From positions 2,747,001 through 2,811,000 of the forward strand of contig NZ_CP084622.1 of NCBI RefSeq assembly GCF_020422885.1: a stretch of 64,000 bases of DNA, written 5' to 3'. Under the pieces are notes generated by a model. That model had not been told where the DNA came from and made no database searches. It saw only the letters and a program-made list of their open reading frames with translations. The DNA is from Mesobacillus sp. S13. GTDB taxonomy: Bacteria; Bacillota; Bacilli; Bacillales; Cytobacillaceae. Below are positions 26,209 through 38,420 of this stretch, one piece after another (positions within the stretch are counted from its first letter, which is position 1; the number at the start of each line of letters is the position of its first letter). Position numbers and translations under genes: made by a program.

Positions 26209-26244
26209 TAAAAGAGTCCCCGGTTCATCCAGGGACTCTTTTTA
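26209..26244. terminator. convergent terminator
   Basis: Stem AAAAGAGTCCC/GGGACTCTTTTT between the HesB-like gene (+) and argS (-). Confidence 0.88.
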
Positions 26245-27939
26245 CATTTCTTTTGGAGCCTTGACTCCAAGTATTCTAAGACCTTCTTCGAGCACAATGC
26301 TTACACAATGGACTAATTGAAGACGTGCGTTCTTTTCAGCATTTTCTTCAAGGATGCGGACTTCTCCATAATATTTATTAAAGGCCTGGGACAAATCAAG
26401 GACATATTTAGCAATCAAAGATGGATCGTTTTTATCAATCGCTCTCTTTATTGTTTCCGGAAAGTTCTGAAGCTCAGTGATCACTGGCCACTCCGCAATA
26501 GCTGCCCATTTGAAGTCTTCATTTCCTCCTTTGAAACCTCCCTTTTTCAATAACGATTGTGTCCGTGCATTTGTATATTGAACATAAGGTCCTGTTTCCC
26601 CTTCAACCTTTAACATTTCTTCGAGGGAAAATTCAATGTCGTTCATCCGAAAATTCTTCAGGTCATGAAAAACAATTGCGCCGGTACCAACCATTTTTGC
26701 AATCTCTGTTTTATTTTCCAAATGAGGATTTTTTTCTTCTATATTCTTTTCTGCCAGTTGAATGGAATCATTAAGAACATCTTCGAGCAAGACTACCTTC
26801 CCTTTTCTCGTGGACATTTTCTTTCCATCCTTTAACATCATGCCAAATGGAACATGAACAATCCCGGCAGCCCATGGAAAGTCCAATTTTGCCAGCACTG
26901 CTTTGAGCTGTTTAAAGTGCAGACTTTGCTCATTGCCGACCACATACAATGATTTTACAAATGAATAGCTATCGAATCTGTACTTAGCTGCGGCTAAATC
27001 CCTGGTAGCATACAATGTTGCGCCATCCGATTTTTTAATAAGACAAGGCGGAAGTTCATGTTCTTCCAAGCTGACTACCAGTGCCCCATCCGAATCAACA
27101 AGCAGCTCCCTGTCTTTTAGCATTTTCACGATTGAATCCATTTTGTCATTATAAAAAGCTTCTCCCGCATATGAATCAAACTCGATTCCCATGAGTTCAT
27201 AAATCTTCTTAAACTCCTTAAGTGACTCATCCTTGAACCATTTCCATAGCTTGAGTGCCTCAACATCCCCGTTTTCCAGACGTCTGAACCAGTTTCGTCC
27301 CTCTTGCTCCAGCTCCGGCTGGCTTTTTGCTTCATCATGAAACTTTATATATAGCACCAGCAGCTCCTGTATTGGGTTCTTCTTTACTTTCTCTTCTGAT
27401 CCCCAAAGTTTATAGGCTGTGATAAGCTTGCCGAATTGAGTTCCCCAATCTCCTAAATGATTGATTTTCACGGTCTTATATCCAGCCTTTTCATAAATAA
27501 GTGACAAAGAATTCCCTATAACGGTTGACCGAAGATGTCCCATGGAAAAGGGTTTTGCAATATTCGGAGAAGAAAGGTCAATTGTCACAATTTGATTTCC
27601 ACCAAGATCAAAATCACCATAATGATTCCTCTTTTGCCCGATTTCAATCAAAAGTTCTTCGGTCACTTTCGCCTTGTTTAAAAACCCATTTACATAGCCT
27701 CCGGCCGCTTCAAAACGTTCCATTGAATCATTAACTGAGCTTTGCAACCGAGCATTTAACTCCTCCGCAATAACTACCGGCGGTTTTCTCATGCTTTTTG
27801 CCAATTGGAAGCATGGAAAAGCTAAGTCACCCTGATGCAAAAATTTCGGTTTCTCAATTAACCTCTCTATTTCTGAACACGAGAGAGCCCCTTCTAGCTC
27901 AACGGCAAGCAACTCTGCATACAGTTTCACATAATCCAT
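26242..27939 (-). CDS. argS: arginyl-tRNA synthetase
   Basis: This 565-residue class I synthetase has an N-terminal additional domain (about 1-90), the HIGH-type motif SPNIAKPFSMGHLRST, a KMSKS-like KKMSTRKGK and a C-terminal anticodon-binding domain ending GLRILGVKAPKEM. It charges tRNA-Arg. AAGGGGG precedes the ATG. It is controlled by an upstream T-box leader, so its level rises when uncharged tRNA-Arg accumulates. Confidence 0.96.
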   Translation of the reverse strand: MDYVKLYAELLAVELEGALSCSEIERLIEKPKFLHQGDLAFPCFQLAKSMRKPPVVIAEELNARLQSSVNDSMERFEAAGGYVNGFLNKAKVTEELLIEIGQKRNHYGDFDLGGNQIVTIDLSSPNIAKPFSMGHLRSTVIGNSLSLIYEKAGYKTVKINHLGDWGTQFGKLITAYKLWGSEEKVKKNPIQELLVLYIKFHDEAKSQPELEQEGRNWFRRLENGDVEALKLWKWFKDESLKEFKKIYELMGIEFDSYAGEAFYNDKMDSIVKMLKDRELLVDSDGALVVSLEEHELPPCLIKKSDGATLYATRDLAAAKYRFDSYSFVKSLYVVGNEQSLHFKQLKAVLAKLDFPWAAGIVHVPFGMMLKDGKKMSTRKGKVVLLEDVLNDSIQLAEKNIEEKNPHLENKTEIAKMVGTGAIVFHDLKNFRMNDIEFSLEEMLKVEGETGPYVQYTNARTQSLLKKGGFKGGNEDFKWAAIAEWPVITELQNFPETIKRAIDKNDPSLIAKYVLDLSQAFNKYYGEVRILEENAEKNARLQLVHCVSIVLEEGLRILGVKAPKEM

Positions 27940-27964: not shown

Positions 27965-28200
27965 AAAAACTCCCGTCTCTAAATAAGAGACGAGAGTTTA
28001 TCCCGCGGTACCACTCCAATTGCTCCGAATTTCGGAACCTTCTTCCAAGTGATAACGGGTAAATCCCGGCTATCCCTACTCAATTTCAGGACAGCATCTC
28101 AAAAGTGCGCTTCATTATTCTGATGCACCAGGCTTCCACCGTCCCTGGCTCGCTGTAGCAAAGAAAGAATAATTACTCTCTTTTTCATCGATTTGATATT
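27965..28200 (-). promoter_or_regulatory. T-box leader of argS
   Basis: On the - strand: a stem I region with AGCGAGCC and GGTGGAAGCC; the candidate specifier CGC (28109-28107, followed by A) in GAAGCGCACTTTTGAG; GAGTAGG; then the T-box TGGTACCGCGG (28013-28003). A terminator hairpin follows, AACTCTCGTCTCT/AGAGACGGGAGTT, with T7. The CGC specifier fits arginine, but its position in the specifier loop was judged by eye. Confidence 0.92.
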
Positions 28201-28847: not shown

Positions 28848-29318
28848 CTAGTATTCTTCGATTTCCCAAGTATGATTGAACTGAATACAGCCCTTTAATG
28901 TTTGTGCGACAGGACATCCCCGTTCGAATACATTTAATGCTCTTTCGGCAGCTTCCCTATTTCCTGAAGGAACCTTCAATTCATAGTGGCAGCTGATTTT
29001 TGTGATTTTCAGGACTCCTTCAGGTGCTTCAATTGTTCCTTGGATGTTCGCTTTGACTTTATCAGGTGAAGATGGTATTTTACGCGCCTCCAGCGCGCCA
29101 GATAGGGTTCCAACCAGTCAGCCGCCTGCTGCAGCAACGATATGATCTAGTGTAGACGGATATTCTACCTCTGGATTCACACCATAGAACTGCTTTACAC
29201 CACCATGTACCCCAAAAAGTAAAGGCTCACTAAAACCTTCAATGTAAGCCTCCCTAATTTTATTGGCAGTATCTTTCTGGATTACTGTTATTTTCGTTAG
29301 CGCGATTGGCTCGGACAA
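28848..29318 (-). CDS. OsmC-family peroxiredoxin-like selenoprotein (in-frame UGA read as selenocysteine)
   Basis: The frame opens at TTG 29318 behind GGAGGGGG and runs 156 codons to TAG 28848, with a single internal TGA at 29120-29118 (codon 67). Before it: DHIVAAAGG. After it: LVGTLSGALEARKI and the conserved second Cys in ERGCPVAQTL. In OsmC/Ohr-like proteins this AGG-C-L-x-G-T-x-x-x-ALEAR position is the peroxidatic cysteine. UGA therefore sits exactly at the catalytic residue while both sides keep family similarity. A candidate SECIS lies at 29097-29083. Without Sec decoding the product would be a 66-residue stump. SelB is encoded in this window. A simple pseudogene is the alternative. 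Confidence 0.88.
29083..29097 (-). promoter_or_regulatory. candidate bacterial SECIS element of the OsmC-like gene
   Basis: Perfect stem CGCGC/GCGCG with apical loop TGGAG, 25 nt behind the UGA. G is the second loop base. This fits the bacterial SECIS rule (short stem, G among the first two loop bases, about 16-37 nt from UGA) as I remember it. Confidence 0.75.
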
Positions 29319-32084: not shown

Positions 32085-32789
32085 TTATTTTTTGAAAAGG
32101 GCAGCTAAAAGGGCAGATGTTCCGAATTTTCCGGTATCAGAGTTTAAATCTTTCATTTTCCGGATTTCAACTGCTGTGAATTCTTGAAAAATCCCCTTAA
32201 GCTTTTCATCAGTGAAGCCCAAACCGCCTCGCATGCTTTTACCCCTATACACTTCCCAATCGGAAATGTCCGCCCCGCCAAGCTCTCCTCCCTGTACAAA
32301 GCAGGTTAGCGCAAATGAACCTCCAGGCTTTAAAGCTCTCTGTACGAGATCAATATAACTCATTCTTCTATGCGGCGGGATATGGTGGAAACAGCCAGAA
32401 TCATAGACAAGATCATAGGAACCCTCTTCAATTTTCAAATCAAAAATATTACGTTGAACAAAATTCACTTTAACTTCTTGTTCTTGTGCCCTTTCTTTAG
32501 CCCATTCCAGACCTTCTGCAGATTGGTCGACGGCATCTACGTTAAAACCATTCCTGGCCAAATAAATGGCATTCCTCCCTGGTCCACAGCCTAATTCCAA
32601 GGCCTTTCCCGCTGTTATCCTACCATTTTCCATATATTCAACTAAATTCTCATCTGGATGGTTTTCAAAAAAAGGAATTTTTCTTTCCCGGTCAGAATAA
32701 AAATGATCCCAGTTAAACTCACTTTCTTCTTTCAGAAAGTAATCTAACATTCTTAATAAGTCCTCATAGCTATTTATTGTTTCTTTCAT
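32085..32789 (-). CDS. class I SAM-dependent methyltransferase
   Basis: This 234-residue protein has motif I ALELGCGPGRNAIYLA (about 64-79), the acidic AVDQS strand end, and motifs around YDLVYDSGCFHHI and LKPGGSFALTCF. The substrate is unknown. GGGAGG lies before the ATG. It is first in the methyltransferase-Nudix-HIT unit. Confidence 0.88.
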   Translation of the reverse strand: MKETINSYEDLLRMLDYFLKEESEFNWDHFYSDRERKIPFFENHPDENLVEYMENGRITAGKALELGCGPGRNAIYLARNGFNVDAVDQSAEGLEWAKERAQEQEVKVNFVQRNIFDLKIEEGSYDLVYDSGCFHHIPPHRRMSYIDLVQRALKPGGSFALTCFVQGGELGGADISDWEVYRGKSMRGGLGFTDEKLKGIFQEFTAVEIRKMKDLNSDTGKFGTSALLAALFKK

Positions 32790-32929
32790 AATCTACCTCC
32801 CTAGATTTCCCCTGTTTACCCTTTCAAAAGTAAAATAAGGTACAGTTGACACTTGTTGATGTCTTGATTTGTACTATCATTACTTCTTTGTATATAATTC
32901 GACAAACCTATTGGAAAATCCTTGTAAAA

Positions 32930-32965
32930 ACGCAAAAAAGCGACCTTCTTATAAGAAGGTTCGCC
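32930..32965 (-). terminator. terminator of the TehB-like methyltransferase gene
   Basis: Stem GGCGAACCTTCTTA/TAAGAAGGTCGC then TTTTTTG on the - strand. Confidence 0.85.
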
Positions 32966-32979
32966 TTATCAATCTTGCC

Positions 32980-33576
32980 TTATTTTTGAAAAATAATCTG
33001 TATTACATGACCCACACCGGTATGTAATTGGCCTTCAATTCGCTCCTCTTCTCCATAGTAGAAATGCAATGTTCTATGCCCTTTCGTCCACTGGAGCAGG
33101 TCCAATGGATCATAAAGCATCTCTTTTGTTTTTGGCCCACCTGTTCCATATTTGACCTGGTCCTCTGAATATACTTCCAGCATGACAATGCCACCAGGTT
33201 TTACAGCAGATATGAGTTTGTCGAATACTGTTTTTTGGTCTCGCTTTGAAAAATGGCCAAAAACCATTATAGCTGCGTCAAATTCCTCAACTGGTACCTG
33301 TTCTTGAGTTAAATCCTTTTGTTTAGTCGTGATCTTGACTCCAAACCGTTGGGCCAGTGCTTCCGTCTTTTTTAGGCCATTAAGCGCATAGTCATAAGCT
33401 GTAACCTCATGACCTTGTCTCGCAAGGTAAACAGCATTCCTTCCTTCACCTTCAGCAAAGCATACAACTTTTTTCCCGTTCTCCAGCCTTGTTGATTGTT
33501 TTTTTATAAAAAGGTTTGGCTCTTCACCATACACATATTCTTCCGAACCGAAACGCTCATGCCATAGATTTCCCAT
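32980..33576 (-). CDS. TehB-like class I SAM-dependent methyltransferase
   Basis: This 198-residue protein starts MGNLWHERFGSEEYVYGEEP, typical of TehB/tellurite-type methyltransferases. Motif I is VCFAEGEGRNAVYLARQG, with EFDAAIMVFGHF and VKPGGIVMLEVY following. Relatives methylate tellurite and selenium compounds or thiopurines. Being beside a selenoprotein gene is suggestive, but nothing shows that selenium is its substrate. Divergent from the thioredoxin-like selenoprotein gene. AAGGAG upstream. Confidence 0.82.
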   Translation of the reverse strand: MGNLWHERFGSEEYVYGEEPNLFIKKQSTRLENGKKVVCFAEGEGRNAVYLARQGHEVTAYDYALNGLKKTEALAQRFGVKITTKQKDLTQEQVPVEEFDAAIMVFGHFSKRDQKTVFDKLISAVKPGGIVMLEVYSEDQVKYGTGGPKTKEMLYDPLDLLQWTKGHRTLHFYYGEEERIEGQLHTGVGHVIQIIFQK

Positions 33577-33690
33577 ACTCTCTCACTCCTTCCTGATTAT
33601 TATACCCTTTACCCTTTTTTTAGTATGATTAAAGAACTGAAGGCTAACCTAATTTTCAATGGGTAAAAAAAGATAGGAGGTGGATTAAAG

Positions 33691-34020
33691 ATGAAAGAAT
33701 TAATGTCGATGGACGAAGTAAAAAGCTTGATAAGCGATAATGAATTAAGCTTCATATATGTCTTGACTGACAGTTGAAGCGTCTGCCATGGATTGCTCCC
33801 TCAGGTTGAGGAAGTTATGGAAGATTTCCCTAAAATCAAAACAGGTTTGGTAAACGCAGGAAAGGTTGAAGAGATCGCTGGATTTCTTATGGCTTTTACC
33901 GTGCCCGTCCTCGTCCTCTATGCAGATGGGCGAGAATATTTGAGGGAAGCCAGGATCGTACAAGTTGAGAAGTTGAGAGATGATATCAGCAAAATATACG
34001 AAGGATTTTTCGGGGAATGA
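33691..34020 (+). CDS. thioredoxin-like selenoprotein with U-x-x-C active site (in-frame UGA)
   Basis: The gene has an AGGAGG 11 nt before ATG 33691 and runs 109 codons to TGA 34018-34020, with one internal TGA at 33775-33777 (codon 29). The translation around it is FIYVLTDS-U-SVC-HGLLPQVEE, a thioredoxin C-x-x-C with the first Cys replaced. The rest keeps the thioredoxin fold, including the cis-proline strand FTVPVLVLYADGREYLREARIV. A SECIS-like stem-loop follows at 33799-33811. Sec at the nucleophilic position would give a fast thiol-disulfide oxidoreductase. Starting translation only behind the UGA would remove the first strand and half the active site, so that is unlikely. Confidence 0.9.
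33799..33811 (+). promoter_or_regulatory. candidate bacterial SECIS element of the thioredoxin-like gene
   Basis: Perfect stem CCTCA/TGAGG with apical loop GGT, 26 nt behind the UGA. CT/AG pairs continue after a C-A mismatch. The GGT loop is like the fdhF SECIS loop. Confidence 0.78.
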
Positions 34021-34023
34021 GTG

Positions 34024-34058
34024 TAGAGCTTGGGATATACCAAGCTCCTTATTTTTCG
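34024..34058. terminator. convergent terminator
   Basis: Stem GAGCTTGG/CCAAGCTC followed by TTATTTTT on +, directly after the thioredoxin-like gene; overlaps the end of the lipoprotein gene. Confidence 0.8.
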
Positions 34059-35490: not shown

Positions 35491-36486
35491 TTGGACAAAT
35501 TCAGCTGGTCTCCTTCTACTTTGTCCGAAGTTGAACTTGGTTCAGACAAAATCACGTTGGTCTCCTTCAATATTGTCCGAAGTTAACCCTGGTCAGGCAA
35601 AATCACGTTGGTCTCCTTCAATATTGTCCGAAGTTGACTCTGGTTCAGACAAAATCACGTTGATCTCCTTCAATTTTGCCCGAAGTTGAACTTGGTTCAG
35701 ACAAAATCACGTTGGTCTCCTTCAATATTGTCCGAAGTTAACCCTGGTTCAGACAAAATCACGTTGATCTCCTTCAATTTTGTCCGAAGTTGATCTTAGT
35801 TCAGACAAAATCCTGATGCATCCCTTCAATTTTGTCCGAAGTTGATCTTGGTTCAGACAAAATCCTGATGAATCTCTTCAATTTTGTCCGAAGTTGATCT
35901 TGGTTCAGACAAAATCAAGTTGGTCTCCTTCAATATTGTCCGAAGTTAACCCTGGTTCAGACAAAATCACGTTGATCTCCTTCAATTTTGTCCGAAGTTG
36001 ATCTTGGTTCAGACAAAATCCTGATGCATCCCTTCAATTTTGTCCGAAGTTGATCTTGGTTCAGACAAAATCCTGATGAATCTCTTCAATTTTGTCCGAA
36101 GTTGATCTTGGTTCAGACAAAATCAAGTTGGTCTCCTTCAATATTGTCCGAAGTTAACCCTGGTTCAGACAAAATCACGTTGATCTCCTTCAATTTTGTC
36201 CGAAGTTGATCTTGGTTCAGACAAAATCACGTTGATCTCCTTCAATTTTGTCCGAAGTTGAACTTGGTTCAGACAAAATCTTGCTGATCTCCTTCAGCTT
36301 TGTCCGAAGTTGACCTTAGTTCAGACAAAATCCTGATGAATCCCTTCAATTTTGTCCGAAGTTGATCTTGGTTCAGACATAATCACGCGGATCTCCTTCA
36401 ATTTTGTCCGAAGTTGATCTTGGTTCAGACAAAATTCTGATGCATCCCTTCAATTTTGTCCGAAGTTGACCTTGGTTCGGACTAAT
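35491..36486. repeat. tandem array of about 19 copies of a 52-bp palindromic repeat
   Basis: The core GTCCGAAGTT recurs every 52 bp (one interval 51) from 35523 to 36458. Each unit has TTCAGACAAAAT and ATTTTGTCCGAA arms that are complementary apart from a G-U pair, so every unit folds into a hairpin. Variable bases lie mainly between the arms. A block of four units (about 208 bp, beginning near 35812) is repeated at about 36020, showing recent block duplication. The array fills the gap between the convergent DUF3231 and selB genes. No coding potential is supported. Confidence 0.92.
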
Positions 36487-36536: not shown

Positions 36537-38420
36537 TTATTTCCGCCAAACCCTTTTGTTTTCAACTCTCCGTGTAAATCCCAGTGCATCGAGACGCTCG
36601 AGGAAAGGAATCATGTATTTTCGCGATAACTCCACTGCTTCCTTTGCCTGGGGTACTTCAAACTCCGCGCCCGTATGTTTTCTTAGCTTCTCCACTGCCT
36701 CAGCAAAATGAGTGCCATACCAGGCATATTGATCATCCAGCATAACAATCTTTCCTTGATCTTCGAGGAATCGTTTCAACTCAGCTGCAAGAGACTCAGG
36801 GATTCCGGCACTTTTTATATAATCGTGCAAATAAGCTACCTTCAGGCCATCCTTCTTGAGTTCCTCAAGCATATTCTCTGTTCGCTTCACCCAGTTGTTC
36901 GGAACATGTGGAGCAAAGCTTTCCATAGAAATATACTGTTCTTTCCTGTTCAGCACCCCCTCGGTTATGGCGTGATCGATCACAAACTCAAGCAGGGTTT
37001 TTGAAAAAGTTTTTTGCAAGGATTGAAGCAGTTCCGCCTTGTTCATCCCGATTCGCATTGGGTTATCAGCATGGAAGTCTTCTAACCGGTCGCTGATCTC
37101 TTCTTCGATAACTTCGACAATTGATACTAGAGCGTATTCCTTATTGGAAATCTGGATGAACTGGTCATCTTTCAGATTGTCCAGAATTGCCCCTTCATCA
37201 AGAGCCGTCCGTTTGATTAGTTCTTCAATAGATAAACTTTTTTCTTCGTATAAAGCAGCATTTATTCGTTCAATTGGCGTTCCGGCTTTCTTTTTCTCAA
37301 GCTCTTCAATCGTCTGCTTGCCAAATCGGTATTTATTTCCGCGTGGGTCAATTACCCATCCGCCGCCAATCGTTTCCTGCGGACTTGGACGGCGGACGAT
37401 GAACCGGTCTCCACGCTTCGTAACGATTTTTTCATCAAGACGGAGCTGACAAAGGATTTCTCCGTTGTCTTCTTTTAGTTCATTCCGGTCAAAAAAGACA
37501 ATCCTTCCCATTACTTCAGCAGTCCCGATATGGCACTTAATAGGGGTTCTTTGTTTTACCAAATGCTCAAGATCCTCAACGACTCTGATTGCTACATCAA
37601 TCGTATTCGTTACAATAAAGTGCTCGGAAGACACAATGACTTCGCCACGTTCAAGATCATCCCGCGAGACACCCGATAGATTGATGGCTGCCCTTTGCCC
37701 TGCATAAGCCATCTTTGCTGGCTGATGATGAACTTGCAGCTGTCGAGCTCTGACCTCTAATCCGCTCGGCAGGATTTTTAATGACTGGCCCTCTTCAACC
37801 GTCCCTTCGTAAACAGTACCTCTCACAACGGTCCCTTGCCCCTTCACTGTAAATACCTGGTCAATCGGCAGGCGGAACGCTCCTTTGGCATCCCGCATTT
37901 CTTGCTCCTTCAGTGTTTCAATGATCATTTCTTTTAATTCCGGGATCCCTTTTTTTGATAGACTATCGACCAACATAAATGGAGCGTTCTCAAAGACTGT
38001 GCCATCAAGCTCGCTTAAAATATCGTCTTTCACTAGCTCTATGAATTCCTCTTCTACCCTGTCGGTCTTTGTAATTGCGATAATACCCGAGCGGATTCCG
38101 AGAAACCCCAGGATATCAAGGTGCTCCTTCGTTTGCGGCATGACGCCTTCATCCGCAGCAACCACCAGAACGACGAGGTCGATCCCAGCAACTCCGGCAA
38201 TCATCTGGCGGATGAAGCGCTCATGTCCTGGAACATCGACAACAGAAATTTGCAGTTCTTCATCCTCATATAATGGCGCAAAGCCAAGTTCAATTGAAAT
38301 TTGGCGTTCTTTTTCTTCTTTCAGGCGGTCCGTATCGACATTCGTCAACGCCTTGGTCAGCGATGTTTTTCCATGGTCAATATGACCTGCCATCCCAATG
38401 GTAAAATACCTCTTGCTCAA
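36537..38420 (-). CDS. selB: SelB, selenocysteine-specific translation elongation factor
   Basis: This 627-residue protein has an EF-Tu-like GTPase domain: G1 AGHIDHGKTSL (11-21), DVPGHERFIRQMIAG (G3), TKTD (G4). Domains 2/3 follow, with FTVKGQGTVVRGTV. The long C-terminal extension of winged-helix repeats (about 370-627) recognises the SECIS hairpin. It delivers Sec-tRNA to UGA codons. TTG 38420 follows GAGGGTG. selA is not next to it, and I find no tRNA-Sec in 38421-38691, which shows only A/T-rich sequence and the hutG terminator. Its presence is independent support for the two UGA genes. Confidence 0.96.
   Translation of the reverse strand: MSKRYFTIGMAGHIDHGKTSLTKALTNVDTDRLKEEKERQISIELGFAPLYEDEELQISVVDVPGHERFIRQMIAGVAGIDLVVLVVAADEGVMPQTKEHLDILGFLGIRSGIIAITKTDRVEEEFIELVKDDILSELDGTVFENAPFMLVDSLSKKGIPELKEMIIETLKEQEMRDAKGAFRLPIDQVFTVKGQGTVVRGTVYEGTVEEGQSLKILPSGLEVRARQLQVHHQPAKMAYAGQRAAINLSGVSRDDLERGEVIVSSEHFIVTNTIDVAIRVVEDLEHLVKQRTPIKCHIGTAEVMGRIVFFDRNELKEDNGEILCQLRLDEKIVTKRGDRFIVRRPSPQETIGGGWVIDPRGNKYRFGKQTIEELEKKKAGTPIERINAALYEEKSLSIEELIKRTALDEGAILDNLKDDQFIQISNKEYALVSIVEVIEEEISDRLEDFHADNPMRIGMNKAELLQSLQKTFSKTLLEFVIDHAITEGVLNRKEQYISMESFAPHVPNNWVKRTENMLEELKKDGLKVAYLHDYIKSAGIPESLAAELKRFLEDQGKIVMLDDQYAWYGTHFAEAVEKLRKHTGAEFEVPQAKEAVELSRKYMIPFLERLDALGFTRRVENKRVWRK

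Follow-up and report, generated by a model that had tools for sequence, protein, structure and literature searches.

A thioredoxin-like gene of Mesobacillus sp. S13 that is interrupted in frame by a UGA at codon 29 is very probably a selenoprotein gene. The gene had been read from the DNA alone, before any comparison, as one in which the UGA stands for selenocysteine (Sec), and that reading is well supported: relatives of the gene carry Cys at the same codon, the genome encodes the machinery for Sec, and a hairpin just past the UGA is under constraint in the genes that have the UGA. From these we infer that Sec is inserted at UGA-29. The gene lies in a stretch of 64,000 nucleotides (positions 2,747,001 to 2,811,000 of contig NZ_CP084622.1, assembly GCF_020422885.1), here called the window, and coordinates below are those of the window unless stated otherwise. 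The finding adds an unannotated selenoprotein group to Bacillaceae and offers a clean natural experiment, in which the same small protein occurs with Sec or Cys in relatives and the hairpin occurs in the Sec forms.

The gene and its predicted product

The reading frame opens with an ATG at 33691 on the forward strand, behind a ribosome-binding-site-like AGGAGG (33675..33680, +), and runs for 28 codons to the proposed Sec codon, a TGA at 33775..33777 (+). It continues through Ser-Val-Cys and stays open until a second TGA at 34018-34020. Inspection by eye suggests a terminator-like element beyond it, a hairpin with a run rich in T after it (34026..34056, +). The whole coding sequence (33691..34020, +) would specify a protein of 109 residues with the motif U29-S-V-C32 and a conserved proline, P72, at the cis-Pro place. 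The sequence-only reading had described this AGGAGG-ATG start, the 28 codons, the TGA and the SVC that follows, as well as a complete thioredoxin fold with its cis-Pro strand. The sequence elements are borne out, and the fold is predicted by the AlphaFold model, which was built from a 32-sequence alignment with the active residue entered as Cys and reaches a mean pLDDT of 89.5 and a pTM of 0.85. In the model a strand at residues 19-25 leads into a helix at 30-43, placing the active site at the helix start after the second strand. Foldseek aligns the model with thioredoxins at TM scores of up to 0.87 by query and up to 0.90 by target; 468 PDB chains match at E <=1e-3, and the best 50 of the 468 are mainly thioredoxins and thioredoxin-based designs.

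The 32-row alignment (A1) comprises eight UGA rows and 24 rows chosen from 101 database hits, and across it residue 29, C32, H33, P72, E82, R85 and R88 are invariant; in the wider Cys set H33 varies. The protein misses the cut-off of the thioredoxin equivalog TIGR01068 (24.1 vs 96.8 bits) and narrowly misses that of PF00085 (22.6 vs 23.5 bits). Of its two NCBIfam matches at E <=1e-3, none is above cut-off. Inspection by eye revealed no signal peptide, and the protein is probably located in the cytoplasm.

UGA or Cys at the same codon in relatives

Among 151 related genomes searched, 82 contain a match to the gene at E <=1e-3 and 59 a strong one (E < 1e-15). The strong matches divide into 32 genomes in which a TGA interrupts the gene in frame and 27 whose gene has no stop. 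The TGA occupies the motif codon in 32 of 32 UGA genomes, and the 28 Cys-type genes found in the other 27 genomes, the Cys orthologues that had been proposed as a first check, all read TGT or TGC at the corresponding codon and none has Trp, so that the codon is UGA or Cys across the 59. UGA forms are present in all 21 genomes of the same genus, that of S13 included, and in 11 genomes of four further genera. The thioredoxin frame is broken near the C-terminus in two of the UGA genomes (G004 and G078). In what follows, Cys counts come from the set with all 28 Cys genes placed and UGA counts from the 31 distinct sequences of the 32; the motif-codon check, the tally of codon +18 and the stem-codon analysis drew on 10 of 18 Cys loci, those with the strict motif.

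A tree of 60 rows contains two changes between the UGA and Cys labels (bootstrap 5-95% range 1-2), with a single change in 12% of 200 bootstrap trees. This would be compatible with roughly one gain of Sec in a family that otherwise has Cys, on an alignment of few columns and an unsettled bootstrap. One genome (G077; loci L075 and L125) has the Cys form and has neither SelA nor a full SelB over cut-off, and the four other gene-bearing genomes of its genus are of the UGA type. A reversal from Sec to Cys after loss of the Sec trait is a possible and suggestive explanation of this genome, whose gene sits on a long branch of unsure placement. A copy with 87% identity was also found on a contig titled Chryseobacterium sp. 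ISL-80 (L049), a record whose organism name is probably wrong.

A constrained hairpin downstream of the UGA

The SECIS candidate, CTCCCTCA-GGT-TGAGGAAG, occupies 33796..33814 (+), with its core at 33799-33811 and its loop at 33804-33806. The core, CCTCA-GGT-TGAGG, begins 21 nt past the UGA and its GGT loop lies 26 nt past it, positions that the sequence-only reading had given correctly. In most relatives the stem is about 8 bp long (CTTCCTCA/TGAGGAAG), and in the S13 strain it has one C.A mismatch below the 5-bp core. The bSECIS model, as published, has a loop of 3-9 nt, a stem of 4-16 bp, a G at the first or second loop position, a spacing of 16-37 nt and a free energy limit of -7.5 kcal/mol (PMC13188914). 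The candidate fits this geometry with its 3-nt GGT loop, 26-nt spacing and 5-bp core, and the S13 sequence folds at -15.1 kcal/mol over 54 nt and at -7.4 kcal/mol as an isolated 38-nt hairpin, just short of the limit.

Folding energy was nevertheless dropped as evidence, with the energy of the single S13 sequence over 54 nt not below that of its shuffles (z -1.16, 24 of 200 shuffles as good) and that of the OsmC hairpin described below not significant either (z 0.01, 103 of 200 as good); the z for SelD is -2.06. For the SECIS folding that had been suggested as a check, comparative constraint speaks for the hairpin and single-sequence energy does not; the strength of the case is comparative. 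Rfam at its gathering thresholds reported only a T-box in the window, a leader of 141.8 bits at 27983-28197 (-) upstream of a gene at 26242-27939 that we take, on its sequence, to encode an arginyl-tRNA synthetase.

A 4-bp core together with the GGT loop is found in 30 of 31 distinct UGA genes vs none of 28 Cys genes. All 31 UGA genes have the GGT loop; of the 28 Cys genes, one has the 4-bp core by itself and four have GGT by itself. A G within the first two loop places is also common in the Cys genes (20 of 28 rows, two of them, L065 and L067, misplaced). Counting codons from the UGA, the UGA genes use CTT for Leu at +7 (28/31), CCT for Pro at +8 (30/31), CAG for Gln at +9 (31/31) and GAG for Glu at +11 (31/31), and the Cys genes that share the residue use these same codons in 1/21, 5/28, 5/16 and 3/10 cases. 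A control proline at +43 also differs in codon use between the two sets (p 3e-5), which shows that there is codon bias by lineage; the between-set comparison alone is therefore not clean. Such bias is shared inside the UGA set, where the permutation was run: five stem codons taken together are under tighter constraint than five columns drawn at random (200,000 draws, p 4e-5), in a test whose columns were chosen with the hairpin already known and from which the Cys rows were excluded. The most constrained six-codon window among the UGA genes starts at +6. The synonymous constraint on the hairpin is a feature of the UGA genes only.

A very improbable alternative is that the hairpin is a by-product of a conserved LPQVE peptide. 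All 32 rows of A1, whether Sec or Cys, do have LPQV, but the Cys genes spell similar peptides with different codons and none of the 28 combines the core with the GGT loop. The UGA genes are also free in their choice of codon elsewhere, using four codons for Pro at +18 (13, 6, 6, 4; CCT in 13/29; p 0.085 against the Cys genes).

Selenocysteine machinery

The S13 genome, a single contig of 4.8 Mb, encodes all four Sec factors, SelA, SelB, SelC and SelD, the presence of which had been named as a point on which the reading would turn. The tRNA-Sec scores 67.1 bits (cut-off 47) and has the ARAGORN anticodon tca, SelA scores 561.6 bits, and SelD scores 394.7 bits and has an in-frame TGA of its own. 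The gene for SelB, the selenocysteine-specific elongation factor, lies within the window at 36537..38420 (-) and scores 364.5 bits against TIGR00475 (cut-off 242.25).

Across the relatives, SelA is over cut-off in 32 of 32 UGA genomes vs 13 of 27 Cys genomes (Fisher 1.5e-6) and SelB in 31 of 32 vs 12 of 27 (Fisher 5.2e-6), values that overstate the association because the UGA genomes are related (five genera; one or two label changes) and are not independent events. The one UGA genome in which SelB falls short, G010, is 66% complete. SelA is split or contains a stop in three UGA genomes (G004, G010 and G016), and the SelB of G004 contains one TGA. Elsewhere in the S13 genome, a formate dehydrogenase alpha-like gene (L108; G000:C1:2836740-2838761, -) has one in-frame TGA. 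Another, partial match (L112) also has one TGA.

Probable translation through the UGA

Compared with 20 same-genus genomes, the gene has a median dN of 0.070 for codons 2-28 and of 0.034 for codons 30-75. Synonymous divergence has reached saturation in the part ahead of the UGA for 16 of the 20 pairs and in the part behind it for 5 of 20, and the median dS of the unsaturated pairs is 1.14 and 1.44, respectively. Low dN on either side of the UGA suggests that both parts are translated in frame.

It is hardly credible that the UGA is a nonsense mutation, or the gene a pseudogene, and that translation simply stops there. UGA is a standard stop, and the database entries are fragments of mostly 67 or 75 residues that begin after it, named, where they have a name, 'thioredoxin', 'thioredoxin family protein' or 'hypothetical protein' (P0034, P0052 and P0097 are the three such pieces among the 20 homologues listed). 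A dead gene would not, however, be expected to keep its UGA at the equivalent codon in 32 genomes of five genera, with few amino acid changes on both sides in the 20 same-genus comparisons. Decoding of the UGA as tryptophan, or non-specific readthrough, is just as hard to credit. WSVC does appear in four of the 20 database homologues listed (P0002, P0005, P0010 and P0014), which we take to be gene predictions made with UGA as Trp; the Cys-type genes have Cys and never Trp at this codon, and this explanation leaves both the hairpin constraint and the association with SelA and SelB unaccounted for. A restart past the UGA, with the 67-75-residue product chosen by gene callers as the real protein, deserves equally little credence, as that product would, by the model, lack the first strand-helix unit and the redox motif and codons 2-28 show low dN. 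Database records for this gene need correcting because the entries seen are truncated pieces or have the UGA read as Trp.

An OsmC-family gene with an in-frame UGA

An OsmC-family gene in the window (28848..29318, -; PF02566, 51.6 bits) has an in-frame UGA at codon 67 (29120-29118). It falls below the NCBIfam model for OsmC-related selenoproteins (24.7 vs 95 bits). A hairpin predicted by folding follows its UGA at 29082..29098 (-), with a 3-nt GGA loop at 29091-29089, 26 nt past the UGA, and GCGCGCTGGAGGCGCG is kept in 18 of 20 placed loci. The sequence-only reading had seen almost exactly the same distance and geometry in the two genes; the distance of 26 nt stands, and the GGT loop does not carry over, the OsmC loop being GGA. 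It had further held that two independent UGA genes of the same geometry in one window make chance mutation very unlikely. A strict test asked for five Watson-Crick pairs around a 3-nt loop whose first or second letter is G. Of the 2864 TGA trinucleotides in the window (both strands, any frame), 2 have such a hairpin at a distance of exactly 26 nt, and the loop is of the GG type in 1 of the 2; at any spacing of 16-37 nt the number is 27 of 2864. The OsmC hairpin fails this test because its loop-closing pair is U.G. The premise of independence is weakened, because the two genes are near neighbours in the genus, though not always together.

Searches of 91 genomes gave a match to the OsmC gene at E < 1e-40 in 24, each with one in-frame TGA. 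The position of this TGA is shared by 20 of these, the other four not being placed by the pattern of the script, and no close Cys form was seen among the 24. A distance of 1.9-6.8 kb separates the OsmC gene from the thioredoxin gene in the 16 same-genus genomes that match it strongly. As an obligate partner of the thioredoxin, OsmC was considered and rejected: 26 of the 91 genomes have the UGA thioredoxin, 24 have OsmC with the TGA, and 18 have both, leaving eight with the thioredoxin only (G002, G008, G009, G012, G015, G034, G036 and G054) and six with OsmC only (G033, G039, G105, G109, G110 and G124). The OsmC gene is in two pieces in G006, and the matches in G027 and G050 are no more than partial and degenerate.

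Gene neighbourhood

The selB gene lies 120-2623 bp downstream of the thioredoxin gene, in convergent orientation, in 20 of 21 same-genus genomes; outside the genus it is distant, the nearest having been read off at about 40 kb. A tandem array of 19 copies of a 52-bp unit (35494-36482) separates a DUF3231 gene from selB in the window. The divergent neighbour on the other side encodes a class I SAM methyltransferase (32980..33576, -; PF13649, 50.0 bits), one of two adjacent SAM methyltransferases by Pfam domains (32088-33576, -) that are weakly like TehB and the MduS selenoprotein methyltransferase, with all NCBIfam scores shown below cut-off. No operon partner is common to most of the 21 context loci. 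The commonest neighbours within about 5 kb are an upstream methyltransferase, at 8 of 21 loci, all in UGA genomes; a large transporter-like family, probably of the MFS type on our reading of its sequences, at 7 of 21 (five UGA and two Cys genomes); and a large ABC-type ATPase family, at 6 of 21.

Relatives of the thioredoxin also occur on plasmids, and 5 of the 16 matching plasmid records were examined, all with a CxxC motif. One copy is beside a sulfurtransferase, a metal-sensing repressor and YtxJ. On a Paenibacillus plasmid the Cys form is directly beside an OsmC gene, with YtxJ and a rhodanese near. A match on a Bacillus licheniformis plasmid has TusA and TauE near; it is unannotated there, between tauE and PAS/histidine-kinase genes, and its frame has stops upstream of the motif. 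Another copy is beside trxA/trxB with a CMD protein, and one of the five plasmids has no such neighbour. The ydfQ gene of B. licheniformis is part of a sulfane-sulfur cluster whose detailed role is described as unknown, and the authors note that thioredoxin reduces persulfide (PMC9918477).

Proposed mechanism and function

We propose that the hairpin a short way past UGA-29 is recognised by SelB with its Sec-tRNA(Sec), and that selenocysteine would be inserted at this codon. The product would be a 109-residue thioredoxin-like selenoprotein, a Sec-containing version of a family that has Cys in Bacillales (motif CSVC) and in which one relative carries the annotation YdfQ. U29-S-V-C32 would then act as a selenol/thiol pair, in which Sec29 may attack the disulfide or persulfide of a partner and Cys32 may resolve the bond, as in CxxC thioredoxins. 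Catalysis probably runs in the direction of reduction by this pair, and our guess is that its substrate in the cell would be a persulfide or a disulfide formed under stress. The plasmid neighbours and the sulfane-sulfur cluster of ydfQ therefore lead us to favour, tentatively and at somewhat less than even chances, a selenol/thiol reductase of persulfides or stress disulfides. A wider scenario, speculative and on balance unlikely, is that a thioredoxin family of sulfane-sulfur or peroxide stress gained a Sec branch about once in Bacillaceae and that, in Mesobacillus, this branch forms a small selenium island with the OsmC UGA gene and selB, in which a selenol reductase and a selenol OsmC-type peroxidase would work as a pair.

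Relation to known systems

No paper on this gene was found in the literature searched, a search outside which most subscription journals lie. A 2006 survey tabulates three selenoproteins for Bacillales in its genome set (PMC1794560). The tables of PMC9312934 and PMC13188914 list Sec thioredoxin (PF00085, UxxC) above their 'Predicted' heading. The S13 protein resembles it in its thioredoxin fold with UxxC and in having Cys homologues at the same place, and differs in scoring below both thioredoxin cut-offs and in its motif, USVC. The classical thioredoxin motif is CGPC. SaoT (NF040730) is likewise a UxxC thioredoxin-like selenoprotein (PMC13188914), but NF040730 is not among the two NCBIfam matches of the S13 protein at E <=1e-3. 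The closest solved relative by sequence profile is BCE_0499 of Bacillus cereus (PDB 4euy, E 8.5e-26), which has 24% identity in the fold comparison, ranks 37 among the matches listed, and carries titles that, where seen, name no function.

The nearest relatives are the YdfQ-like 'thioredoxin family protein' sequences of Bacillales with the motif CSVC, which are 41-57% identical over the 24 rows chosen from the 101 hits and share with the eight UGA rows the seven invariant residues given above; the name YdfQ rests on the annotation of one record (P0091) and on the B. licheniformis plasmid match. They differ from the S13 protein in having Cys in place of Sec and in the absence of the hairpin. 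UxxC Sec thioredoxins are already known, and what would be new here is their occurrence in the YdfQ-like CSVC subfamily, whose Sec members stand in the databases as truncated pieces.
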